Assembly (NCBI GenBank): GCA_902500755.1
Contig: CABVRV010000010.1
Location: forward strand, 1 to 59,894
Origin: an uncultured Nitrospira sp.
GTDB taxonomy: Bacteria > Nitrospirota > Nitrospiria > Nitrospirales > Nitrospiraceae
DNA: 59,894 nt
Direction: 5' to 3'
Made by a program: the position numbers and the translations under genes. The notes under the pieces were generated by a model. That model had not been told where the DNA came from. It did not search any database and worked only from the letters and a program-made list of their open reading frames with translations. Shown here piece by piece: positions 40,309 to 55,989 of the stretch (the stretch's first letter is position 1; each line of letters begins with the position of its first letter).

Positions 40309-40346
40309 CCTCCACGTTGAGCAATGCTCGGCTCAGAGAGCCCACA

Positions 40347-41933
40347 ATGGACGATTCCCCTTCTTCGCCCCCTCCCCCTCCTTCTTCCATTTCGCACAAC
40401 GCGTTGGAGCACATCATGCTCCAGATGGCCTCGAGTCTCGACCTTCAAGAGGTGCTCACCACCATCACGCAAGGATTGGTCGACGAGCTGGATGGCGCCT
40501 TTGCCCGCATTTGGCTGCTAGGTCCCGGCGATCTCTGCGCCAATTGTTACAAAGTGGCAGAGTGCACGAATCGGGCTCGTTGCCTGCACCTTGAGGCGAG
40601 CGCGGGGCTCTACAGCAACCTCAACGGAGAGTATCGCCGCATCCCGCTGGGGGCGCTCAAGATCGGGAAGATCGCGCAAGGCTTCGGACCAATGCAGACG
40701 AACGACATCCTCGGCGATGACCGATTGCCAAACAAGCAGTGGATGCAAGACAACGGGCTCCGCTCCTTTGCCGGCTACCCGTTGAAGTTCCGCTGGGAGC
40801 TGCTCGGCGTCATTGCCATGTTTGGGCGTAGACCTCTAAGCGAGGAAGAGTTCGAACGGTTGGCTATTTTTGCCAATCAAGCAGCGATTGCGATCAAGAA
40901 CGCGCAGCTCTTTACAGAAGTCGCACAGCTCACAAATAGACTCGAGGCGGAGAACCTCTACCTTCGCGAGGAGATCAAACTCAATCACAATTTTGAGGAG
41001 ATCGTCGGTGAGAGCCCGATCATCAAGTCTGTGCTCCGACTCATCGAACAGGTCTCGCCGACGGATTCGACGGTCCTGATCCGGGGAGATACAGGGACCG
41101 GCAAAGAATTGCTGGCCAGAGCCATTCACAACCTGAGCCCGCGAAGAGATCGCTCGCTGGTGAAGGTCAACTGCGGGGCGATTCCCGCTAACCTCGTCGA
41201 AAGCGAGCTCTTCGGCCATGAGAAGGGATCGTTCACCGGAGCATTACAACGCCGCATCGGACGATTCGAGTTGGCGGACGGGGGAACGATCTTTCTAGAC
41301 GAGGTTGGTGAGTTACCGCTGGATGCCCAGGTGAAGCTCCTGCGGGTACTACAAGAAAGGGAGGTCGAACGGATCGGCAGTGGCCATTCAACCAAAGTCG
41401 ATGTCCGGATCATCGCCGCCACAAATCGAGACCTTCCTGCGGCGGTGAAGGCCGGCTCATTCCGTGCCGATCTGCTCTACCGACTGAATGTGTTTCCGAT
41501 CGAGGTACCACCTCTGTCCGCTCGTGCGTCGGATATCCCACTCTTGGTCAACCGATTTGTCGCCAAGTTCTCAGCCAAGATCAGCAAGAAGATCGACGGG
41601 GTGTCTCACGCGACCATGGATCGCCTCATGAAATACTCCTGGCCCGGCAACATCCGGGAGTTGGAAAATGTCATTGAACGGGCCACGATCCTCGCGAAGG
41701 GACCAATGCTTCAGATCGACGATGTGATGCTTCAGGGGAACTCCGCCCCGCTGTTGCCGGTCGCAGATTCACTGGAAGAGGTGGAACGAGCCCACATCCT
41801 CCACATCCTTCAGGATATGAATTGGATCATTGAAGGGAAACAGGGCGCTGCCGCTCGTCTTAATCTCCATCCCAACACACTTCGGTCCCGGATGCAGAAA
41901 CTCGGCATCAAAAAACCCAACCCCACTGCATAA
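40347..41933 (+). CDS. Sigma-54 activator with cysteine-bearing GAF domain
   Basis: This 528-residue enhancer-binding protein has an N-terminal Pro/Ser stretch and a GAF domain (about 20-190). The AAA+ domain carries Walker A GDTGTGKE (247-254) and the sigma-54 contact loop GSFTGA (294-299; Ser replaces the usual Ala). A Fis-type HTH covers about 490-528. The GAF domain contains a Cys-x2-Cys-x5-Cys-x5-Cys cluster (Cys64, 67, 73, 79), suggesting a metal, Fe-S or redox sensor. It lies just upstream of tandem palindromes and a -24/-12 promoter, so it probably controls the next operon. ATG chosen; a TTG ten codons earlier also opens the frame. Confidence 0.92.
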   Translation: MDDSPSSPPPPPSSISHNALEHIMLQMASSLDLQEVLTTITQGLVDELDGAFARIWLLGPGDLCANCYKVAECTNRARCLHLEASAGLYSNLNGEYRRIPLGALKIGKIAQGFGPMQTNDILGDDRLPNKQWMQDNGLRSFAGYPLKFRWELLGVIAMFGRRPLSEEEFERLAIFANQAAIAIKNAQLFTEVAQLTNRLEAENLYLREEIKLNHNFEEIVGESPIIKSVLRLIEQVSPTDSTVLIRGDTGTGKELLARAIHNLSPRRDRSLVKVNCGAIPANLVESELFGHEKGSFTGALQRRIGRFELADGGTIFLDEVGELPLDAQVKLLRVLQEREVERIGSGHSTKVDVRIIAATNRDLPAAVKAGSFRADLLYRLNVFPIEVPPLSARASDIPLLVNRFVAKFSAKISKKIDGVSHATMDRLMKYSWPGNIRELENVIERATILAKGPMLQIDDVMLQGNSAPLLPVADSLEEVERAHILHILQDMNWIIEGKQGAAARLNLHPNTLRSRMQKLGIKKPNPTA

Positions 41934-45475: not shown

Positions 45476-46417
45476 TTATTTTACGACAACCTCAACCCGG
45501 CGGTTCTTCGCTCGCCCAGCTACTGTATTGTTGCTGGCAATCGGGTCGCTCTCCCCGTGACCGGCTGCCGAGAGGGCAGCTACGCCGCCATCCTTGAGCG
45601 CATGAGCTGCACTCGCGGCCCGTGCGTCGGAGAGCTCCTGATTCGAGGGGAACTTCTTCTTTAAGGCACCCTTAATCGGTACATTGTCGGTATAGCCGGC
45701 AACGTGTACGTCTTTTTCAGGAAAGTCCCTGAGAACTCCGCCGACTCGCTCCAGCGCATCGGCCCCACCTGATTTCAGCTGGTCTTGACCGGAATCGAAC
45801 AGCAAGCTTGAGGCCAAGTTGATCGTGAGCGCATCCCCGGTCTGACGGACCGACACCGTGCCTTTTGAAATTTCCGGCTGGAGCGCTTTGAGAAGATCGC
45901 GCTCGGCCTTGGCCAAACTGCCTTTGCTCTGATCTAATTGACCTTCAAGATCGGCTATCCGTTGATTCGCCGCAGCCAATTCTGCCGCCAGCCGATCTTT
46001 CTCGCTCTGTGACTGGCTCAGGTCGCCTCGGGCTCCCGCAAGTTGACTTGCCAGGGCGGCGCGTTCCCCGGATCCTGACCGAAGGGCTTCGATTTCACGA
46101 TCACGTTCAGCGAGCTGACGCTCTAAATCGCCGACACGGCTACTGAGGGCTCCATTCTGTCTCCGCGCTGCTGCCAGTTCATCAGCTAACTGTTGACGCT
46201 CCCTTTCAAGGGCTGCAAGGCGGTCAGCCGATGCGTCTGATGCCACGGCTTTCGCCGTCGAAGGACACCCGCTACCTTTGTGATAGCCGTACCAATTCTT
46301 GTCGATGCAGACTGTCGGCTGCTTGATATAGGAAGAAGGATGGTCCTTGGACAATGATGTACAACCAGCCAGTGCGACCAAACCTATCAGCACCATCGAG
46401 GTGTTACGCGTTCGCAT
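45476..46417 (-). CDS. OmpA-family lipoprotein with coiled coil
   Basis: The 313-residue protein has a lipobox ending at Cys19 (VALAGC). A coiled coil of about 120 residues follows (LERERQQLADELAAARRQ and similar), then a C-terminal OmpA domain with LLFDSGQDQL, VAGYTDNVPI and KNRRVEVVV. It should anchor the outer membrane to peptidoglycan. The ATG follows AAGGAG. It is downstream of mscL on the same strand. Confidence 0.88.
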   Translation of the reverse strand: MRTRNTSMVLIGLVALAGCTSLSKDHPSSYIKQPTVCIDKNWYGYHKGSGCPSTAKAVASDASADRLAALERERQQLADELAAARRQNGALSSRVGDLERQLAERDREIEALRSGSGERAALASQLAGARGDLSQSQSEKDRLAAELAAANQRIADLEGQLDQSKGSLAKAERDLLKALQPEISKGTVSVRQTGDALTINLASSLLFDSGQDQLKSGGADALERVGGVLRDFPEKDVHVAGYTDNVPIKGALKKKFPSNQELSDARAASAAHALKDGGVAALSAAGHGESDPIASNNTVAGRAKNRRVEVVVK

Positions 46418-46490
46418 GATGATCTCCTTTTTCTCTCGTGTGCGCGGCAGATGCCCCACCCACGTTCCTGCCCAGGTTGTAGCCGTCGCC

Positions 46491-46913
46491 TTACTGACGG
46501 CCCTTCAGTGCATCGCGGATTTCCATCAACAGTTTCTCCTCATTCGTCGGCCCAGGTGGCGGTGGGGGCGGTGGAGGTGGCGCTTCGTTTTTGAATCGAT
46601 TGACCTGCTTCACCAGTATAAAGATGACGAAGGCGATGATAAGGAAGTCGAAGACGCTCTGCAGAAAGACGCCATAATTCAGCGTAGGGGCACCTGCGGC
46701 TTTGGCCGCGGCCAGCGACGGAGGGGATGTTTGAGACAAGTCGATGAACAGGCTGGAAAAATCTACTTTACCCATCAGCAACCCCAGCGGCGGCATCAGC
46801 ACGTCGCTGACGAGGGATGATACGATTTTCCCAAACGCTCCACCGATGATGACACCGATCGCCATATCCAGGACATTGCCCTTCATGGCGAATTCTTTAA
46901 ATTCTTTCAGCAT
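46491..46913 (-). CDS. mscL: Large-conductance mechanosensitive channel MscL
   Basis: The 140-residue channel opens under membrane tension to release solutes after osmotic downshock. It has [20 protein letters not shown] at the N-terminus, with the pore constriction in the first helix, and a second helix ([17 protein letters not shown]). A run of nine Pro (about 111-119) then leads to the C-terminal bundle ([13 protein letters not shown]). The Pro run is longer than in E. coli MscL. Confidence 0.96.
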
Positions 46914-46960: not shown

Positions 46961-48079
46961 CTATCGTTTGCGGGTTGTGTCGAACGCATACCCTAGCGTG
47001 AGCAAGTACAAATTGTCGGTATCGCCTATGCCGGCAGGTGGGCGATTGTTGTAGCGGGTGGTTACTTGGAAACCGCTCGACAGGCCAGCCAAGATTTTCA
47101 TGCGAACCCCGTTATCCATCGTAAAGAAGAAATCCGACGCGTTCTGGACTGAGGGGAAGATCTCGTTGTAATGGTACAGCGTGATACGACCATCGAACAG
47201 CGGCCAATCGAATTTCATGGCCACGCGAGCGCGAAAGCTCGCCCTATCGTCGGTGATGCTATTATCGCGGTAGTCCTCATTGAAATAGGCCGCACCGGCC
47301 TCGGCGTAAAAGGTCATGTCTTTGAACATCCCGTTGAGGTCTCCACGTTCGAGGAATTGATACCCCGGGCCACTGGCAATTGCTGTTCTTAACTTGAGAT
47401 TTTGTAGAAAATCATTTTCGACATAGGCCGATGCGAACCAGAAGAGTCGTTTGGTAATAAAGAAGTCCAACTTGATCGTTCCTCGGGCATTCCGAACGTT
47501 GAGGCTCCCGGCATTGTCGCCGTAGACGTACCGCCCCAACAAGGTCAGTCGGAGTTGCTCACTGCGGGCCACGAAGTCTGCGAGTAGGCTGACGTTCCGA
47601 AGTTGGCTGTTACCCGTCGATTGTGAGTAACCCGCGTTCAAGCTACCGTTATAGATGACCGGCGGTTGGACCACAGGGTTGACCTTCAGCACGGCGTCCA
47701 TCGGCATGGTCATCGTGCTGCCGGTGGGACCGGCCTTCAGCGTCATTGTTCCGGGCTCACCCTCTTCGGCTGTGCCGACCAGCACGGTTCCCTCTTTTAG
47801 GTGGAAAGGAATGGGATGAGAGACTGCCAGCTTACTCACTTCAGACCACTTAATCTTAATCAGATCGTCCGCCAGCGCGCTCTTCATCTGAAGCACCCCA
47901 CCCACCATCTCGACCACTTCCCCATGAATGACACTGCCGTCCTTCAACGTCACCACGTCCAGAGCTGACGTCGCCTGTGGATCAGAGATCGGAGCATCGG
48001 CAGAAAACGTAGGGCTTACCGCTGTCGTCGTCAGAGATACACTTGCGATCAGCGCAAACGCAACGAATGATGGCTTCAT
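46961..48079 (-). CDS. DUF481 outer-membrane protein
   Basis: The 372-residue protein has a signal peptide ending near SADA. A beta-rich domain (about 40-130, VVTLKDGSVIHGEVVEM) is followed by a DUF481 beta-barrel (about 140-372) ending in YAFDTTRKR. DUF481 proteins (E. coli YdiY) are outer-membrane or secreted proteins of unknown role, often acid- or salt-induced. Together with the neighbours (mscL, OmpA lipoprotein), an osmotic or envelope-stress theme is likely. Confidence 0.85.
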   Translation of the reverse strand: MKPSFVAFALIASVSLTTTAVSPTFSADAPISDPQATSALDVVTLKDGSVIHGEVVEMVGGVLQMKSALADDLIKIKWSEVSKLAVSHPIPFHLKEGTVLVGTAEEGEPGTMTLKAGPTGSTMTMPMDAVLKVNPVVQPPVIYNGSLNAGYSQSTGNSQLRNVSLLADFVARSEQLRLTLLGRYVYGDNAGSLNVRNARGTIKLDFFITKRLFWFASAYVENDFLQNLKLRTAIASGPGYQFLERGDLNGMFKDMTFYAEAGAAYFNEDYRDNSITDDRASFRARVAMKFDWPLFDGRITLYHYNEIFPSVQNASDFFFTMDNGVRMKILAGLSSGFQVTTRYNNRPPAGIGDTDNLYLLTLGYAFDTTRKR

Positions 48080-48378
48080 TTATCCTCCGTAAACATGGAT
48101 ACGTACTTGTCTAGAGCTAATCAGCCTTAGGTGTATACCGAATTCGCGTCGACGCTGCAACAAGATTATTGGTTTAATCTCGAATGTTAGGCACCAAAAT
48201 TATAATGATCTCTCCGAAATATTTGCGACCTTGCTCTCAGCCGGTTCAGCATGGACGGGAGAAGCACGTTCACAACCGTCGCTTCCCCGCCACGAAACGG
48301 GCAGGGGTTTACGTGGAGGGTTCTGACCGTCTCCAGGGTTGCTCGCCCGTCATGCATGTTGGGATCAAGAAATCTTCT
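48080..48378. other. Intergenic region before the DUF481 gene
   Basis: No gene is apparent. A weak promoter (TTGCAG, 17 bases, TATACA on the minus strand) lies about 50 bases before the DUF481 ATG. The response regulator ends at the other side without a clear terminator. Confidence 0.35.
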
Positions 48379-49131
48379 CTACTGATCCAACCCTTTTTCG
48401 ACATGCACATAGTACCGCGCCGCTTCCGATCTTCTCGATATTCTCAAGCGTTTGTAGATCTTTTGCAGTCGAGTTGCCACCGCAGTCGGCGTGACATTCA
48501 ATTCTTGGGCAATTTCCTTATTCGTCTTCCCGGACGCCACATAGGACAACAATCGAAGGTCATCCGGCGAGCAATGATCTTCGACGCTCTCACGCGCCGA
48601 CCGACCTCCATCCTTTACCCATGTGATAACCTGCTGGGTCAGCTGTTGGTCCATAATCGCACGACCGGTCGCCACGATCTCGATGCTCTTCGCGACGGCG
48701 TCAGCGGCGGCGGTCTTCAATAGGTATCCCTGCGCACCTGCCACAATCGCGGCACGGAGCAGATCTTTATTGTCATGGGAGGTGAAAAAGAGAACGCCGA
48801 TGTGTGGATGCGCTTCACGAATCATTTTACAGAGATCGATACCGCTCGTTTGGCCGACACGAACCTCCAGAACGACCACGTCCGGTCGCCACGTCTCCAT
48901 CGCGGTGCGCACCTCGCTGGGAGTTCTGGCGACACCGACTATCGTGATGTGCTGACTCTTCGACAGGAACGTCTTAAGTCCATGAAGCGTCAGCATAGAA
49001 TCATCAATCAGCACCACACGAATGGATTTTCTTACGCCCGTTGATTCACTCATCGTGTTATTCCCATCGAATGGTGGCTCCATCAAGTCCGCTGACCTCG
49101 GGGCCCAGTCTGTGGAGAGCTTCATATTCAT
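48379..49131 (-). CDS. LuxR/NarL-type response regulator with Glu in place of the phospho-acceptor Asp
   Basis: The 250-residue protein has a receiver domain (about 36-155) and a LuxR HTH (about 185-245, SYVASGKTNKEIAQELNVT). The acidic pair Asp43-Asp44 and Lys139 are present, but the phospho-acceptor position reads VVVLEVRVG, with Glu89 where Asp is expected. It therefore cannot be phosphorylated in the normal way and may be locked in an active-like state or regulated otherwise. The ATG overlaps the stop of the previous gene (ATGA). It is the last gene of the operon that starts behind the palindromes near 50 kb. Confidence 0.88.
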   Translation of the reverse strand: MNMKLSTDWAPRSADLMEPPFDGNNTMSESTGVRKSIRVVLIDDSMLTLHGLKTFLSKSQHITIVGVARTPSEVRTAMETWRPDVVVLEVRVGQTSGIDLCKMIREAHPHIGVLFFTSHDNKDLLRAAIVAGAQGYLLKTAAADAVAKSIEIVATGRAIMDQQLTQQVITWVKDGGRSARESVEDHCSPDDLRLLSYVASGKTNKEIAQELNVTPTAVATRLQKIYKRLRISRRSEAARYYVHVEKGLDQ

Positions 49132-49508
49132 GAGCGCCTCGTGTTGCTGAAGATGGTTTTCAGGTGTGTGAGCAATCCTTGTCCGATCCGCTCCAGCGTG
49201 AGCGTCCCGGTGGCACTATGCATGGCGCCTCTGTGCGCCATGTTCAGAGCGTTTTGGTGTATCAGCTCAAGTCGTCGAGAGCAGTCCGGGCAGTAGATAT
49301 GAATAAACGGGATATCGCTGAGACGTGCCTTGCTGTTTTCTCGGTACGCCTTCATAGGCATCCACACTGGAAGCTGGTCTCGTTGTCGCGATTCATTGTC
49401 TCGTACAAAGCCACAGTACCGGCAGACAAAGAGCGGCGCCGGCCCTGATTCCGGTGTGTATTCAGAAGGATTCATCGGCCAAACCCCTCGATGCGTCACC
49501 CCGATCAT
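49128..49508 (-). CDS. Cys-pair protein of unknown function
   Basis: The 126-residue protein has two Cys pairs (CRYC at 29-32 and CPDC at 73-76) around a segment like that found in some two-component proteins (a CxxCxxxRD...CPxC pattern), so it probably binds zinc or an iron-sulfur cluster. ATGA overlaps join it to the genes before and after, and GGAG sits six bases before the ATG. A second in-frame ATG 11 codons later has GAGGGG upstream. Possibly a redox or metal sensor for the operon. Confidence 0.65.
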   Translation of the reverse strand: MIGVTHRGVWPMNPSEYTPESGPAPLFVCRYCGFVRDNESRQRDQLPVWMPMKAYRENSKARLSDIPFIHIYCPDCSRRLELIHQNALNMAHRGAMHSATGTLTLERIGQGLLTHLKTIFSNTRRS

Positions 49509-49816
49509 AGGACACTCCGGAGTTTGGATTGAGACGATCCCTGAGCACGCGCACGACGGGATCTCGTGGCCCTCGGGGTGATCAATTCCGAATTGGTGGA
49601 ATTCAACACACGGCAAATGTCGACAAAGAAATCGACGAACGCGGCGATCAGCGATTCACGACGAGCTTCTTCTTGAATTCCGGTCAACTGCTGCCATTCG
49701 CCGTTGATTCGCTGGAGCACCATCAATCGATGGGTCTTCAGCCTCTGACGCGATTCGGTTGTCAGGAGAAATTCTTGACCATTCTGATTATCGACGAGGA
49801 GTCCTTGAGTCGCCAT
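49505..49816 (-). CDS. Small protein of unknown function, first of the operon
   Basis: The 103-residue protein follows AGGCAGGA. The first 50 residues (LLVDNQNGQEFLLTTESRQR, then MVLQRINGEWQQLTG) look like a small beta/alpha domain. The C-terminus is basic (RSRRARAQGSSQSK). No family recognised. Its leader begins at a predicted sigma-54 start about 80 bases upstream. Confidence 0.55.
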   Translation of the reverse strand: MATQGLLVDNQNGQEFLLTTESRQRLKTHRLMVLQRINGEWQQLTGIQEEARRESLIAAFVDFFVDICRVLNSTNSELITPRATRSRRARAQGSSQSKLRSVL

Positions 49817-49904
49817 GTGTTCCTGCCTCTCCATTCTCATTCGTCCTAACACTTCACCGCTGCAACAAATCACCCGCACTGTGTGTCAACAGAGAGTGCA
49901 CTAG

Positions 49905-49920
49905 AACAATCTCCGTGCCA
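49905..49920 (-). promoter_or_regulatory. Candidate sigma-54 (-24/-12) promoter
   Basis: Minus-strand sequence TGGCACGGAGATTGTT has a perfect -24 element (TGGCACG) and correct spacing, but the -12 dinucleotide is GT instead of GC. It lies about 80 bases before the ATG of the first gene and about 85 bases from the palindrome centre. Confidence 0.55.
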
Positions 49921-49990
49921 CATCAGCGCAAAGTCATCATCGCTGGATTTTTAATCCATTTGATAGGACGGGTGAGGCTCAAAACCCCTA

Positions 49991-50030
49991 GAGTTGTTTC
50001 AGACTGAAACAACTCGGCGTCTCATGAGAC
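49991..50030. promoter_or_regulatory. Paired palindromes, candidate activator sites
   Basis: GAGTTGTTTCAG-A-CTGAAACAACTC (49991-50015) is a perfect 25-base palindrome. GTCTCATGAGAC (50019-50030) follows, within a longer imperfect palindrome ACTCGG...CCGAGT. The core GTTTCA...TGAAAC plus GTCTC...GAGAC pair recurs at 17.04 kb. The sites lie between the sigma-54 activator gene and the operon it probably drives. Confidence 0.65.
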
Positions 50031-50146
50031 ACCGAGTCGTGTTCGGTGAGACAGCTTCTCAAGCAAATCGATGGCCTTACGATGAGAAAATACGCGGGCT
50101 GTCGCGACGTTGATCATCAAGGATCGAGGCTTGCGAGAGTATGGAA

Positions 50147-51949
50147 TCAGCGGGGATGAATATCGAGCTCGACGAGGCGGCGATAGAACGTCGCCCGACT
50201 GACACCCAGTCGCTTGGCGGCTTCTGTTCGATTGCCCTTGGCATCGGAGAGAGCGGCAAGCAAGCGGGTTTTCTCGTCCCGCTCCTGCAAGGGAATCCAG
50301 TGCGAGGGAGTCGGCGCCGCCGATATCCCTGTGACTTCCGGTGGAAGATCACTGGGAGCCACCTCCGCCCCCTTGCAGCTGATCACCGCAAATTCAATGG
50401 CGCTCCGCAGTTCACGTACGTTTCCCGGCCAGACATAACTCATCAGTCGATGAAGCGTCTCCGGATTGAGACGGTCGATGGTCTTCCCGGAAGCAGCACA
50501 GATGGTCATGAGAAAGGAGTGTGCGAGTAATGGAATATCTTCACGACGTTCTCTCAGTGGGGGAAGCTGAATTCTGGCGATGCGGATCCGATACAGAAGA
50601 TCAGCTCGAAACGAGCCGCGAACAACGTCTTCACTCAAGTTGTGGTGCGTGGCCGCCAGCACGCGCACATCCACTTTGCGCGGCCTGCTCTCTCCCAGCC
50701 GGGTAATTTCCTTCTCCTGGAGAACCCGCAACAGCGCCGTCTGAACCGGCGGCGGGATATCTCCGATTTCATCGAGAAACAACGTTCCACCCTCCGCGGC
50801 TTCGAAGAGTCCCTGCTGGTCATTCACCGCCCCGGTAAAGGCTCCTCGCCTGTGGCCAAACAGCTGGCTCGTCAGAATTGAATCGGTGAGTCCGGCACAA
50901 TTGGCGGCAATGAAGGACTTACTCCGTCTTCCGCTGGACGAATGAATAGCTCGCGCGACCAATTCTTTTCCTGTTCCTGTCTCCCCTTCGATCAACACGG
51001 TAGTATCGACGGACGCCACATCTCGGACCAGTTGGTACACTCGCACCATCGCGGGGCTCTTCCCGACAAGGTCATGAAACGACGCCTGCTCGTTGAGCAC
51101 GCGACGTAGCGCGTGGAGCTCCGTGCGGTCATGCATCACCAGAATCTGACGACCCGGGTGCCGTGGATCTCGATGGATATCCAGCTCAATCCAGGCAGGA
51201 TGAGAGCTGTCAATATAGAACGGCCCAGCCGTGCGCCTGTCTGAGGGAGCATCGATCATTTCACGGAATATCGCCCGATCCTGCAGATGAAAAGGAATGA
51301 TCTCTTCCCACTCCCGCCCGATCACCTCCCCTGTCGAAACACCCAGCAGTTCAAGCCCCCGATGGCTAACAAATGTGATGCGGCCACGTTCGTCAAGAAC
51401 GAGCGCGGCAAGCCTGAGATGCTGAAGCAACGCCAGTGCATCGTCTTTGGTGCGTTCGCTGGCCTCAAGCTGACCGATCAGGCGGGTCTCAGTTTTATGG
51501 TGAGACTTCACGGCGACGTCTTCCGCAAGCATACGTTCCCGGGCCCGTTGCACGATGGATCGCATCTGCTCAAACCCGGGTCCCAGGCGCTCAATGAGCA
51601 GGACCGTTCGAGATTCCATTGACAGAATCGTCGCTTCCAGGGTCATGGCGCCGCCCTGGCGATCGGATTCCGCCCATGGCCCTGACTTCTCGATTATCAC
51701 GGGTTCCGCTATCCGCGCCGGCTGATCTAGAGCGAGATACTCCCGCAAAAACGGCGACCATTGCTCAAGATCCAACACAGCGCATGATTCAAGACCGACG
51801 CGCATGCGCCACCACTCCGGCGCCATCCCCTGTAGCTGGAACTCACCGGAATGCTCGTCACGCTCGAACACTGCGATATCGAGAGTGGAGAGAACGCGAT
51901 TGAACAGTGGATCGTCGGATGGAACGGAGTGAAGCAGCCGGCGGCTCAT
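50147..51949 (-). CDS. Sigma-54 activator with PAS domain
   Basis: The 600-residue enhancer-binding protein has a PAS-like N-terminal part (about 20-130) and a second PAS domain (about 175-280, [20 protein letters not shown]). The AAA+ domain has Walker A GETGTGKE (322-329) and an intact GAFTGA loop (369-374). A Fis HTH ([20 protein letters not shown]) ends the protein. It lies directly upstream of the palindromes and joins the GTPase gene by an ATGA overlap, so a membrane signal could pass through the GTPase to this activator. Confidence 0.92.
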
Positions 51950-52467
51950 AAGCGTTCAGTTGGGAGAGGCGAACCATGCATGATTTGAGTCGCGACGCTC
52001 AGGAATAGCTCCTCGACTCCTTGCCCAAGTTTGGCGCTGCCGAACAGAACGGTCCAGCCTCGCGCTCGCAGTTGCTCGATTGCGCCATCGTCGATTTCCC
52101 ACTCAGATTGAAGATCCGCCTTGTTGATGATCGAAACGAATGGAACGGTTCCCAGCGTCCGAGCGGCTGTCTGTTGCAGAGCGAGTGCCGTGTCCAGAGT
52201 GACCTTCCTGGTGCCATCCATAACCAAAATGTACGCGGATGACCCCCGCAGATACGAGTCGCGCACATGCTGAAACTCGTCTTCCCCGTAGAGATCCCAC
52301 AGCATCAACATGACGTCGTGGTCTTTGATCGCCACAGTTTTCTTCTCGACCGTCACGCCGATGGTCGTCTGATAGTGATCCGAGAACACGTTGGTCACGA
52401 AACGCCGTACCAGGCTGGTCTTACCCACGGCGAATCCACCCAGCATGCAGATTTTCTTCTGGATCAT
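51946..52467 (-). CDS. Rab/Ras-like small GTPase
   Basis: The 173-residue protein has all GTP-binding motifs: P-loop GGFAVGKTS (10-18), the G2 Thr in QTTIGV, G3 DLYGE (58-62), and G4 NKAD (115-118). The catalytic Gln of Ras (after DxxG) is Glu62 here, so intrinsic hydrolysis may be slow or need a partner. Stand-alone bacterial Rab-like GTPases of this class are rare and usually paired with a regulator or envelope protein. It overlaps both neighbours by four bases. Confidence 0.9.
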   Translation of the reverse strand: MIQKKICMLGGFAVGKTSLVRRFVTNVFSDHYQTTIGVTVEKKTVAIKDHDVMLMLWDLYGEDEFQHVRDSYLRGSSAYILVMDGTRKVTLDTALALQQTAARTLGTVPFVSIINKADLQSEWEIDDGAIEQLRARGWTVLFGSAKLGQGVEELFLSVATQIMHGSPLPTERL

Positions 52468-54236
52468 GGACGCGCCGTCTCCTGGACCTGCTCAGGAGCC
52501 GTAAGAGCAGCCCGCAGGGTCACGCTTCGCAGGCTGCTGGTTTCTCGCGTCGCCCCTTGCTGGTCAGAGAGCTGGACAGTGCCCGGGACCAGCGTTATGC
52601 CGTCACCGAGGCGCTTCTCTCCAAGGATTGCGAGAACAGCCTGAGCTCGTTGTTTGCTTAATTGAAGATTGAGTGCCGCCGAACCGGTCGCATCGGCCGA
52701 CCCCAGTACTTCCAGCGCCACGCGTTGACCTGATTGCAAGGCCGCTCGATCCAATTCTCGCAGCGTAGTCGAAACCACGTCCAGCACGGCGCGCTCTGAC
52801 GGTTCGACGGACGACGAACCGGAACGAAAGTGAATGATGGCGCGGTTGATCTGGGCCAGGAGAACCGGAATGGATGTCGTCACGAGACCTTCGTCACGAT
52901 ACTGGGAGATCCCGGGAACGAGTACCGCCAGTCGTTTGGTCTCTCTGACCCATTCAGTCGACGCGAAGCCAGTTGCGACCAGCGTTTCTCCGGCGATGTG
53001 CAGCTTCACGGTGGTCGGAGGCTGCAAGATCGAGTGCGCTCTAGCCAGGACGAGCGGAGAATCCAACGCATAATAAGGAGACCACACCGCCTTCACCGTC
53101 GCGGGTTCAAGGCCGGCTTCGATCACCATTGCTGTAGGGTCTTTCGCCAAGGGGTCTCGCAGCCCTTCGAGGCGATACTCTCCCCACGCTGATTTCGCCT
53201 CGGTGACGACGAGGCCCGGCTCTGCCCGCAACCCAGCAAGGAGATTGGACCATCGTGTGTGGGTCTGATACTCCATCCATCCCCACCATACCGACCCCAG
53301 CAAGAGCAAGCCGATCAGAATCGAGAGTTTCAACGAGCTCTGTTTGGGTGGCGACTCATACTGAGCTTGTAAGCAACTCTCCAGCTGAGGCTGTGTCGTT
53401 TTAAACGGGGCCTCGTCTCCGACAAAATGGGCCAAGGCATCAGTGTGTTGAGCATGGATGTGATTCAGCGTGTCGCACAGGATTTCTCTCAGGCTCCCCG
53501 GAGGTGTTCCGCGAACGACACAGGCCAGGTAGGCCTGTGACCCTTGTTCGCTCCACACCGTCCATTCACCGACTTGGAACTGATCGAGAGTCTGATCCTG
53601 TCGACCGCCGAACGAATCCCGCACATAATTTTGAATCGCCGTCAGCATCCCGGATAGGACATGCTGGTCCTGTATCACGGCTCCATTGGTCGCCACGTGC
53701 TGCAACAAGAGTCCCGTCTCGCGATGGATGAGAAAGACCTGTTCAACGCGATACCGAAGCCGATGGAGCAGCACGACCTCCGCGAAGGGTTTCCCCGTCC
53801 TCCAGGCTTCGACCCGCCAGCGCAAGCCACGGACGGACAAGCTCTCATCCAGCGTGTGATTGAAGGACTGCGTCATGCTTTGTAAAGCGCGGGCGATGGC
53901 CTGCCGAATGGCCGGCGCGATGATTGGAGCGATCGCATCGACGATCGTTCGCGGCGATTTTCTCACGGACGCCACGAAACCGTTTTCGACATAGGGCGCC
54001 AGCACCGTCGATAGCTGTGGATCGTTGTCGCCGCGAAGCGCGAAGGCCTCGGGAAGCACTTGGCTGACATCCCCTGACTGAACCACTCGGTTGTCCAGCC
54101 GTTCTCGGATTTCGTCGAGTTGTGTTTGTTCGGGGGCCAACAATAACGTGCGGAGCTGGGTCCAGTCTTCCTGAACGGACGTGAGTCCTTCAGGAAGCGA
54201 GGACTCGGAACGTGGTCTTCGGAGATCGCTAGACAT
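52464..54236 (-). CDS. Large membrane-anchored protein with OmpA-like C-terminal domain
   Basis: The 590-residue protein has an N-terminal cytoplasmic part of about 300 residues, one membrane helix near residues 325-345 (LSILIGLLLLGSVWWGW), then an extracytoplasmic part. The part after the helix resembles two BON/OmpA-like domains, the last being OmpA-type (FRSGSSSVEPSE, then LEVLGSADATGSAALNLQLS). So the cytoplasmic side could contact the GTPase while the outer end binds the wall. The N-terminal part has no match I know. It overlaps the GTPase start. Confidence 0.82.
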   Translation of the reverse strand: MSSDLRRPRSESSLPEGLTSVQEDWTQLRTLLLAPEQTQLDEIRERLDNRVVQSGDVSQVLPEAFALRGDNDPQLSTVLAPYVENGFVASVRKSPRTIVDAIAPIIAPAIRQAIARALQSMTQSFNHTLDESLSVRGLRWRVEAWRTGKPFAEVVLLHRLRYRVEQVFLIHRETGLLLQHVATNGAVIQDQHVLSGMLTAIQNYVRDSFGGRQDQTLDQFQVGEWTVWSEQGSQAYLACVVRGTPPGSLREILCDTLNHIHAQHTDALAHFVGDEAPFKTTQPQLESCLQAQYESPPKQSSLKLSILIGLLLLGSVWWGWMEYQTHTRWSNLLAGLRAEPGLVVTEAKSAWGEYRLEGLRDPLAKDPTAMVIEAGLEPATVKAVWSPYYALDSPLVLARAHSILQPPTTVKLHIAGETLVATGFASTEWVRETKRLAVLVPGISQYRDEGLVTTSIPVLLAQINRAIIHFRSGSSSVEPSERAVLDVVSTTLRELDRAALQSGQRVALEVLGSADATGSAALNLQLSKQRAQAVLAILGEKRLGDGITLVPGTVQLSDQQGATRETSSLRSVTLRAALTAPEQVQETARP

Positions 54237-54349
54237 TGGCCTGGGTCATGATCATGCAACCGACCTGAAACGAAGACGACCGTGAATGGCCTCGACCTGA
54301 GCGACGAGACAGGGCGGCTTCTAGTCAGAGCCTGACACAGTGATCCCGC

Positions 54350-54967
54350 TCATGGACGAGCCGCGTTCACGTCATCGCTGGATAGCCGTTTGGACGCTTC
54401 TAGTAAGATTGCCGCAAGAGTCGAACGATCGGTCTTCTCAGCACGGAGGTCATGGACCGCTTGATTAAGGGCCGAAGTGGTCTCAGCATGTCGAACCCGC
54501 ACGTCGCTTGCCAGCTCCGTCGTTCGTTCCGTCAGCTGCTGCATGAAATGAGTCTGCGTCTGGGCGGCCTGGCTTTCCAGGTGACGTGCCTTGCTGTCCA
54601 GTGTCGCGGCTAGCTGAGTAAGCTCCTGCGTTAGCTTGGTGACCGAGTCCCCTCGAACCTCTTGCTCCTTCGTGAGCCTGCTCGTGAGGGCATCGACTTC
54701 TTTCTTGATGTACATTTCAAGACTCTCAACCCGCCGTTTCAGATCAGTACGGAGATCCGTGGCTTCGCGGATTAAGTGTTGCTCGAGCTGTGCGAACCGT
54801 CGATCGTGTTCGCGGGCCTGCTGCCCGAAGAGGATGTCCCGAATCTTGTCGAGATTCCCGCTGGCTGATGGTTCGTCAGAATGCGAGACAGCACCTTCTC
54901 CAACCTGATTCTCGGCTTGACCTCGGTGAACAACAGCGGATTGGTCTGTAGAGGGTGATCGACTCAT
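54350..54967 (-). CDS. Coiled-coil protein of unknown function
   Basis: The 205-residue protein is about 70 percent helical, with a long coiled coil at about 45-170 (FAQLEQHLIREATDLRTDLK and LTQELTQLAATLDSKARHLE). It opens with a disordered Ser/Gln-rich tail and contains LDKIRDILFGQQAREHDRR, a block that also precedes coiled coils in cyanobacterial homologues I recall (memory, unchecked). It is first in the operon, about 110 bases before the OmpA-like gene. Confidence 0.72.
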   Translation of the reverse strand: MSRSPSTDQSAVVHRGQAENQVGEGAVSHSDEPSASGNLDKIRDILFGQQAREHDRRFAQLEQHLIREATDLRTDLKRRVESLEMYIKKEVDALTSRLTKEQEVRGDSVTKLTQELTQLAATLDSKARHLESQAAQTQTHFMQQLTERTTELASDVRVRHAETTSALNQAVHDLRAEKTDRSTLAAILLEASKRLSSDDVNAARP

Positions 54968-55178
54968 AGCCTCACCTCATGAGATCGCGAGAGACAGAAC
55001 AACAGCTTGCGCCAACGGATACTCACCCCACTGCTCACCGGTTATTCGTGTTCCTTCTTGTTTGCCCCATGCAAGGGCTATCCTAGCACCGGCAAGCCGG
55101 CTCCAACAAGACCGGATTGATGGGCTTGTGTGAATCCTTCAACGTGAGGGGAGACCGGACGTCCGTGATCCGGCAGCG

Positions 55179-55985
55179 CTAGTCCTTCACAAGGTGAACC
55201 AGGTGGTGGGGTGATGGCAACTCGATGCCATGAGCCCGGAATCGTTCGAGGATCAACTTATTCAATTCCCCTTGAACTGAACCATAATCCGCCACGGTCG
55301 TCCAGGGGGCGACAGAAATGGCGATCGACGATTCTCCCAATGACGCCACGCCTGCGCCAGGAGCCGGCTCCTTCAAGACTTTGGGATGTTGTTGCAGAAT
55401 ATTCCGCACGTGGGCCAGTGCCTCATCGAGATTGGTCCGGTGGGACACAGGAATAGTCAAGTGCACCTGACGGATGGTGCCGAAGTTATGCAGAATCTCG
55501 CCCACAATTTTGCGGTTGGGAATGATGACGCGGGATCGATCCGCGTGCATCAACGTCGTGGTGAAGATATCGATGACGACGACATCTCCGTGAACGCCGA
55601 GCAGGGAGATATGTTCGCCGACCTTATAGGGCTTGCTGAAGATAATCGACAACCCGGCCATCACGTTGCTCAACACTCCCTGCAAGGCCAAGCCGATCCC
55701 CACACCGGCAACACCGACACCGGCGATGAGCGGTGCAATGGGAACACCCAGCGTTTGGAGCGCGATCATCGCGGTAAAGAGCATCACCACGATTTTGACG
55801 ATGCGCACCAGGAGCAGACGGACCGGTGGCTCAAGTGTCTGTTTTTCGAGCGCCTGCTGAGCAACATTCCCGGCCCCGCGGGAGGCCATCATTCCGGCGA
55901 CCAAAATGCCGAGAGCGACCGCGGCCTGCAGGCCGTACTGCACGGCATATTGAGTGAGCGTATCGACGACGTTCATAGAAGGCAT
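55179..55985 (-). CDS. MscS-family mechanosensitive channel
   Basis: The 268-residue channel has three membrane helices. The pore helix (GVGVAGVGIGLALQGVLSNV, about 93-112) is the Gly/Ala-rich MscS TM3, followed by the cytoplasmic beta domain (FSKPYKVGEHISL, IPNRKIVGEILHN). Length is near that of E. coli MscS. The start lies next to the asmA stop. Two alternative starts (a GTG one codon earlier, an ATG three codons later) are close by. Confidence 0.92.
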   Translation of the reverse strand: MPSMNVVDTLTQYAVQYGLQAAVALGILVAGMMASRGAGNVAQQALEKQTLEPPVRLLLVRIVKIVVMLFTAMIALQTLGVPIAPLIAGVGVAGVGIGLALQGVLSNVMAGLSIIFSKPYKVGEHISLLGVHGDVVVIDIFTTTLMHADRSRVIIPNRKIVGEILHNFGTIRQVHLTIPVSHRTNLDEALAHVRNILQQHPKVLKEPAPGAGVASLGESSIAISVAPWTTVADYGSVQGELNKLILERFRAHGIELPSPHHLVHLVKD

Positions 55986-55989
55986 CACG

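Follow-up and report, generated by a model that had tools for sequence, protein, structure and literature searches.

The window analyzed here, 59,894 nucleotides of an uncultured Nitrospira sp. (assembly GCA_902500755.1, contig CABVRV010000010.1), contains a Group 1 Rup system, identified by its gene neighborhood and motifs, whose output is a sigma-54 activator. The locus is a real and conserved signaling system; its mechanism is predicted. In the reading that we favor and consider moderately probable, the Group 1 Rup module has been rewired so that wall strain passes through a longin platform, a GTPase and a PAS-AAA+ activator to sigma-54, a LuxR-type regulator and perhaps a DUF481-mscL gene pair. 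The OmpA protein of the module would grip peptidoglycan and transmit wall or turgor strain over the inner membrane to a cytosolic longin-like platform, which would load or hold the Rab-like GTPase. The active GTPase would then contact the PAS-like N-terminal domain (N-domain) of the activator, whose nearly invariant Gln may help GTP hydrolysis, and the freed AAA+ ring, bound at TGTCTCA/TGAGACA, would open the sigma-54 promoter of an operon encoding open reading frame (ORF) A, ORF B and the LuxR protein. The latter, probably phosphorylation-independent now, would act on further genes, perhaps DUF481-mscL.

Identity, spread and parts of the module

The Rup operon consists of the following four genes:

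54350..54967, minus strand: coiled-coil protein, 205 aa, gene 1 of the operon (56-sequence alignment)
52464..54236, minus strand: OmpA-type membrane protein, 590 aa (PF00691, E 4e-6, just over its cut-off)
51946..52467, minus strand: Rab-like small GTPase, 173 aa (PF00071, Ras, E 6.5e-29)
50147..51949, minus strand: sigma-54 activator, the output (PF00158, E 3e-66; GAFTGA; HTH_8)

A previous reading of the same DNA, made from its letters alone (the sequence-only reading), had described this operon, ATGA overlaps, palindromes, a -24 element and a second operon with an atypical regulator, and all of these are present; the overlaps join the OmpA protein to the GTPase, the GTPase to the activator, ORF A to ORF B and ORF B to the regulator. 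The reading did not report the longin-like domain, the activator's PAS-like N-domain or the flanking MscS, DUF481 and MscL genes, nor that the module had already been described. Its statement that no system with this set is known was mistaken, since the set is the Group 1 Rup neighborhood of Wuichet and Søgaard-Andersen, 2014 (PMC4316618). The text of that paper gives a coiled coil, an OmpA protein carrying a domain of unknown function, a GTPase without the Gln of G3, and an output protein that has an invariant Gln in its N-terminal region and is typically a c-di-GMP enzyme (diguanylate cyclase or phosphodiesterase) or a histidine kinase. The words sigma-54 and NtrC are absent from its main text, while its supplementary member table may already list a sigma-54 output, and a literature search by family name found no later Rup paper. 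Three features look new beside that text, namely the output by a sigma-54 activator, its cis sites and the predicted longin; the mechanosensitive-channel context and a TIR-STAND variant described below also go further than it does.

With 173 aa, the GTPase falls within the size range of Rup GTPases (150-240 aa, Ras superfamily, no G3 glutamine). Its G3 motif, WDLYGED, lacks the catalytic Gln and has Glu62 in its place; E, D, N, R and K are the five commonest residues at this position, accounting for 99 of 101 homologues. The best PDB sequence match is Rab23 (E 1.4e-21), and the nearest named locus, L001 of an uncultured Nitrospira, encodes a GTPase of 92% identity. A genome scan, from which 80 of 91 confirmed loci were kept, found the GTPase in genomes that by title span many phyla, among them cyanobacteria, Acidobacteria, Myxococcales, desulfobacterial groups, Verrucomicrobia and Gammaproteobacteria. 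The genes grouped by the sequence-only reading do co-occur in these genomes: among loci with enough flank, the OmpA protein adjoins the GTPase in 63 of 70 (46/53 without Nitrospirales), the coiled coil lies beside it in 57 of 66 (41/49), and a fourth gene carrying the PAS-like N-domain is found in 58 of 73 (37/52). Among the Nitrospira loci, L042/L187 has a split GTPase frame. The coiled-coil protein has conserved DKiRdILFG and C-terminal KtDRxxLA motifs (56-sequence alignment); homology to the N-terminus of the OmpA protein was considered and rejected (hhalign probability 5%, 21 columns).

The OmpA protein is laid out as a helical N-terminus, a predicted longin domain (~161-293), a transmembrane segment (~301-322, the single hydrophobic stretch by eye), a periplasmic BON-like region and a periplasmic, peptidoglycan-binding OmpA domain (~470-580). 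Its cytosolic part is long and strongly conserved, and structure modeling predicts that the domain in it is a longin, a fold that eukaryotic Rab regulators have: the model follows the longin order beta-beta-alpha-beta-beta-beta-alpha-alpha, and fold comparison listed longins. A Roadblock/MglB identity was set aside, as hhalign gave a probability of 0.6% against 27 Nitrospirota Robl_LC7 sequences and the matches listed in the fold comparison were longins; roadblock folds outside that listing may also match. Bacterial longin relatives in general are not new, because bacteria are scored as having Longin/Roadblock in a table of PMC4917890, and in PMC3521125 longins are derived from prokaryotic roadblocks. 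This anatomy fits the roles proposed by the sequence-only reading, in which the OmpA protein would sense the wall and the GTPase would relay the signal.

The activator is composed of the PAS-like Rup-associated N-domain (~17-151), a weak second PAS (173-228), a GAFTGA-bearing sigma-54 AAA+ domain and a Fis-type helix-turn-helix (HTH); rpoN is encoded in the same genome. The N-domain, modeled by AlphaFold2 (AF2) with a predicted local distance difference test (pLDDT) score of 88.7, has PAS/LOV structure matches, and its Gln (Gln134 in the window) is kept in 77 of 79 non-redundant rows of the N-domain alignment; it may be the Gln of the figure 4 logo in PMC4316618. The output at this locus, a sigma-54 activator, is of neither kind called typical there, a wording that leaves room for other outputs. 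Among 44 fourth-gene proteins compared with Pfam (out of 102 frames with the N-domain, with the window's protein alone representing main-clade Nitrospira), HATPase_c is matched by 27, an HD domain by 10 and the sigma-54 domain by 5. By the GAFTGA motif, these five are the proteins of the window, L026, L028, L190 and L191, all Nitrospirales; outside this order, histidine kinases and HD domains prevail as outputs. The N-domain was found in 45 of 296 Nitrospirota genomes, belonging to two families of one order. Each genome's best match lies in an open frame of 581-709 aa, and 5 of the 45 have a second, shorter copy; L026 represents a third family not seen in this sample. In two other phyla (L055, 3990-5471, and L067, 10779-12110), a gene for an NtrC-type regulator, which has both a receiver and a sigma-54 domain, comes after the Rup fourth gene, possibly the ancestral two-step form. 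Because of this pairing, it is reasonable to suppose that Nitrospirales merged the fourth gene and the NtrC-type relay into one protein.

Mechanosensitive channels and the nature of the signal

The locus lies among genes for mechanosensitive channels and a DUF481 protein, which we take to be an outer-membrane barrel:

55179..55988, minus strand: MscS-type channel, upstream neighbor (Pfam MS_channel domains)
55080..55109, minus strand: sigma-70-like promoter of the Rup operon, TTGTTG-N18-TAGGAT with TGC ahead of the -10 (alignment, by eye)
48132..48160, minus strand: sigma-70-like promoter of DUF481, TTGCAG-N17-TATACA (mostly conserved in a 22-sequence alignment, by eye)
46961..48079, minus strand: DUF481 protein, possible target of the LuxR regulator (Pfam DUF481, E 2.5e-37)
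46491..46913, minus strand: MscL channel, 47 bp after DUF481 (Pfam MscL, E 7.9e-47)
45476-46459: coiled-coil/OmpA gene, downstream of DUF481 and MscL

MscL stands beside DUF481 in 53 of 58 DUF481 loci, or 40 of 44 once duplicate contigs were removed by hand (of the other four, L004 ends inside DUF481). MscS lies upstream in 41 of the 58 (30/44 deduplicated), namely in the main clade, genus g1, and in genus g12, and not in the divergent sublineage or genus g14. The coiled-coil/OmpA gene also follows DUF481 in most of these loci. Because of the MscL and MscS neighbors we place the system in the context of turgor and envelope tension, a theme at which the surroundings of the locus hint.

The strongest alternative, which we nonetheless regard as unlikely, keeps the GTPase wired to the sigma-54 activator, but lets the OmpA domain merely anchor the complex to the wall (for example for localization) while the signal is cytosolic, a ligand of the PAS domains or of the GTPase. 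The two PAS-type domains of the activator could indeed bind ligands, related MglA GTPases control motility according to the text of PMC4316618, and the module has varied outputs in other phyla. Such a cytosolic signal is at odds with the synteny, which links the locus to MscL in genera g1, g12 and g14 and to MscS in the g1 main clade and g12.

How the favored route from wall strain would reach the channels is less direct. Direct sigma-54 control of DUF481 in Nitrospira was rejected, as its conserved promoter is sigma-70-like. The LuxR protein may control DUF481-mscL. A sigma-54-like site does stand directly before DUF481 in L028, from another family. Overlapping the -10 region of the DUF481 promoter in the window is GGTATAYACC, a near-palindrome and possible site for a LuxR-type protein.

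Candidate activator sites and the second operon

The intergenic region past the activator and the operon behind it contain the following features:

50047..50053, minus strand: upstream activator sequence (UAS) half-site TGTCTCA (aligned across Nitrospira loci)
50018..50031, minus strand: central UAS palindrome TGTCTCATGAGACG (alignment and genome motif counts)
49995..50011, minus strand: second UAS palindrome TGTTTCAGTCTGAAACA, TGTTTCA-N3-TGAAACA (Nitrospira alignment)
49905..49920, minus strand: sigma-54-like promoter TGGCACGGAGATTGTT (aligned regions, shuffle count)
49505..49816, minus strand: ORF A, 103 aa, gene 1 of the sigma-54 operon, without a Pfam family
49128..49508, minus strand: ORF B, two CxxC pairs, zinc-ribbon-like by eye
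48379..49131, minus strand: LuxR-type response regulator, Glu89 at the phospho-acceptor position (Pfam Response_reg and GerE)

Aligned Nitrospira loci keep GTCTCA, a near-perfect TGTCTCATGAGACA and a TGTTTCA/TGAAACA-like site between activator and second operon, followed by TGGCACG-N4-TTGTW ~100 bp past the central palindrome; the TGTCTCA/TGAGACA sites lie ~75-130 bp upstream of the -24 element. The pattern GGCA[CT]N5TTG is present at a nearly constant distance (offset 227-262) in 16 of 16 Nitrospira regions, against a mean of 0.185 of 16 in dinucleotide shuffles (n = 200); this count left out 4 of the 20 aligned regions, L013 with a GGCG variant and L005, L042 and L008 with a different arrangement. 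In the 300 bp that follow the stop codon of the activator, TGTCTCA/TGAGACA is 63-fold denser than in the remainder of the loci (108 in 15.9 kb versus 78 in 726 kb) and is present in 45 of 53 loci, in a count that doubles one contig (L028/L234) and omits L042 and L071.

Related lineages vary this arrangement. In the divergent sublineage (eight loci, two identical there), the half-sites are rearranged and the sigma-54-like site stands directly before the regulator. In 9 of 11 loci of genus g12 (not L225 and L227), one of the top two matches is a sigma-54-like site at offset 159-166, with full or partial half-sites ahead of it, and g14 (L222) has four TGTCTCA and a weak promoter. Likely activator sites and a promoter are comparatively footprinted in three related genera. 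These footprints support, at the level of predicted binding and promoter control, the proposal of the sequence-only reading that the activator switches on the adjacent operon. Autoregulation of the Rup operon was rejected: TGTCTCA/TGAGACA is missing from 23 of 23 aligned upstream regions, and the sigma-70-like promoter listed above is present, conserved by eye in 22 of the 23 (L007 does not fit).

It is improbable that the palindromes and the sigma-54 promoter serve another activator while the Rup activator works elsewhere. More sigma-54 activators are encoded in the genome, for example at 40317-41933 of the window (GAF/sigma-54 by Pfam, outside the Rup locus) and at L189 13996-15333. In the window's genome the palindrome itself has one mismatch and 18 further palindrome-like places have two, 19 in all versus 5 in the reversed control, and for this reason further targets are possible and a single-target reading is not proven. 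Against another activator speaks the exact 14-mer palindrome, which occurs in 12 of 59 genomes, once in each, always 1.9-2.1 kb downstream of the Rup GTPase, and in none of these 59 genomes that lack a GTPase match. A composite pattern similarly occurs in 17 of 80 genomes, all of them among the 39 with a GTPase match (G012 being a weak partial one), with the Rup GTPase 1.9-2.0 kb away; in G099 its TGGCA half is misoriented, and G085 and G032 have an extra opposite-strand match at the same palindrome. Furthermore, a change in the HTH accompanies loss of the motif: family f3 has GKRA/SRST for GNR/RAT and, in five distinct loci, a 300-bp stretch free of half-sites (a TGAGACA of L236 lies just outside, at offset 317), both of which one lineage event could explain.

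An ORF A-like ORF is seen by eye in 10 of 13 main-clade loci, window included, and in 8 of the 13 a different CxxC ORF (MRCKRC or MRCRRC...) takes the place of ORF B; the one checked in Pfam has a zinc ribbon match below its cut-off. L004 and L013 have extra DNA between activator and regulator. Because of the Glu substitution in the regulator and the receiver-less GerE proteins at its place in genus g12 (4 of 4 loci read, L223, L226, L229 and L230, one confirmed by Pfam), what is conserved is the DNA-binding unit of LuxR type, and phosphorylation seems to have given way to sigma-54 control. That the regulator is still a phosphorylated two-component type tolerating Glu89 is the least probable alternative. 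In its favor, all 32 sequences keep the first pocket Asp (43). Against it, all 25 main-clade sequences have Glu as the acceptor (the 7 from the sublineage all have Asp), the second pocket Asp is changed in 10 of 32 (two of these to Glu), and the g12 loci read have no receiver at this place.

Taken over all parts of the favored mechanism, comparison supports the conservation of the module, the shared N-domain, GTPase:PAS-domain fusions (see below), the cis footprint, the Glu substitution and the MscS/MscL synteny; the nature of the signal, the polarity of the GTPase, a Gln acting like a GTPase-activating protein and the target of the LuxR protein would follow by inference. Several observations weigh against it, in addition to the further palindrome-like places and the half-site-free family f3 noted above. 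The longin call is based on one AF2 model with pLDDT ~55-89 in the domain, and sequence profiles give it no support: the 25 of 52 Pfam families listed for 53 members include no longin, and neither do the 3 matches of a PDB profile search at E<=10. The -12 element of TGGCACGGAGATTGTT is TTGT versus the consensus TTGC, and the strict composite is missing from 22 of the 39 GTPase-matched genomes. The link from activator to mscL is indirect because DUF481 has its own sigma-70-like promoter, and the channel synteny covers the 58 DUF481 loci. Finally, according to the text of PMC4316618, no Rup protein had been experimentally characterized as of 2014.

Exchangeable outputs and relation to known systems

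The window's genome contains a paralogous Rup locus (L189 5411-11799, C6), in which a stand-alone N-domain is followed by a 965-aa TIR-NACHT-like-TPR protein. The same order is found in 5 of 5 loci with this second GTPase (~40% identity; L189 and L237-L240), which all end in TIR_2-TPR proteins by Pfam; in two of them, L239 and L240, GTPase and PAS-like domain are fused. The TIR-STAND-TPR output looks like an immune effector, which suggests that widely differing outputs have been coupled to the GTPase module. We tentatively extend this to a bacterial plug-in Rab/longin switch, a proposition that may well hold but on which we would not yet rely: a wall-anchored longin would set a Rab-like GTPase driving any effector with the PAS-like, nearly-invariant-Gln domain, and effectors would be freely swapped among lineages, be it a histidine kinase, an HD-domain enzyme, a sigma-54 activator beside osmotic release valves or a TIR-STAND-TPR immune-like protein. 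If so, Rab-longin pairing would be a bacterial signaling device and not a speciality of eukaryotes and Asgard archaea, and, if the longin reading holds, it would bear on the origin of the Rab-longin partnership in eukaryotic membrane traffic. The Nitrospira locus gives the Rup system a measurable output, a sigma-54-like promoter with conserved sites next door, along with predicted contacts (longin:GTPase and GTPase:PAS-like domain) and a physiological theme in the mechanosensitive channels.

Two other affiliations were rejected. For a Zorya-like reading, the PADLOC matches, made by the coiled coil and the OmpA domain, were only weak (E 2e-4 to 4e-4). Actinobacterial conservons (CvnA-D) resemble the locus in that a small GTPase is operon-linked to a signal-transduction partner, an analogy proposed by the Rup authors in the text of PMC4316618. 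Membership was rejected as the window's genome has no MglB partner (no Robl_LC7, PF03259, match at E<=1e-8, and no Pfam roadblock among the matches listed for the locus proteins); CvnC-like genes were not searched for.

The system shares with Group 1 Rup systems the coiled coil, the OmpA-type inner-membrane protein, the Rab-like GTPase without G3 Gln, the invariant-Gln output region and the lack of MglB, and differs from them in its sigma-54 AAA+ activator as output, its likely cis target, the predicted longin and the TIR-STAND variant. Like NtrC-type enhancer-binding proteins, the activator combines PAS, AAA+ with GAFTGA and a Fis HTH with upstream sites and a -24/-12-like promoter; unlike them, it would receive its input from a small GTPase and neither by phosphorylation nor from a small ligand. 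In eukaryotes, Fuzzy-Inturned acts as a regulator of Rab23. Rab23 with Fuzzy-Inturned (CPLANE) and other longin proteins are comparable to the Nitrospira pair in that a Rab-like GTPase, whose best solved relative is Rab23, stands beside a protein whose predicted fold matches chains of these proteins, whereas the Nitrospira system is bacterial, wall-anchored and feeds into transcription, its longin relation being one of predicted fold only.
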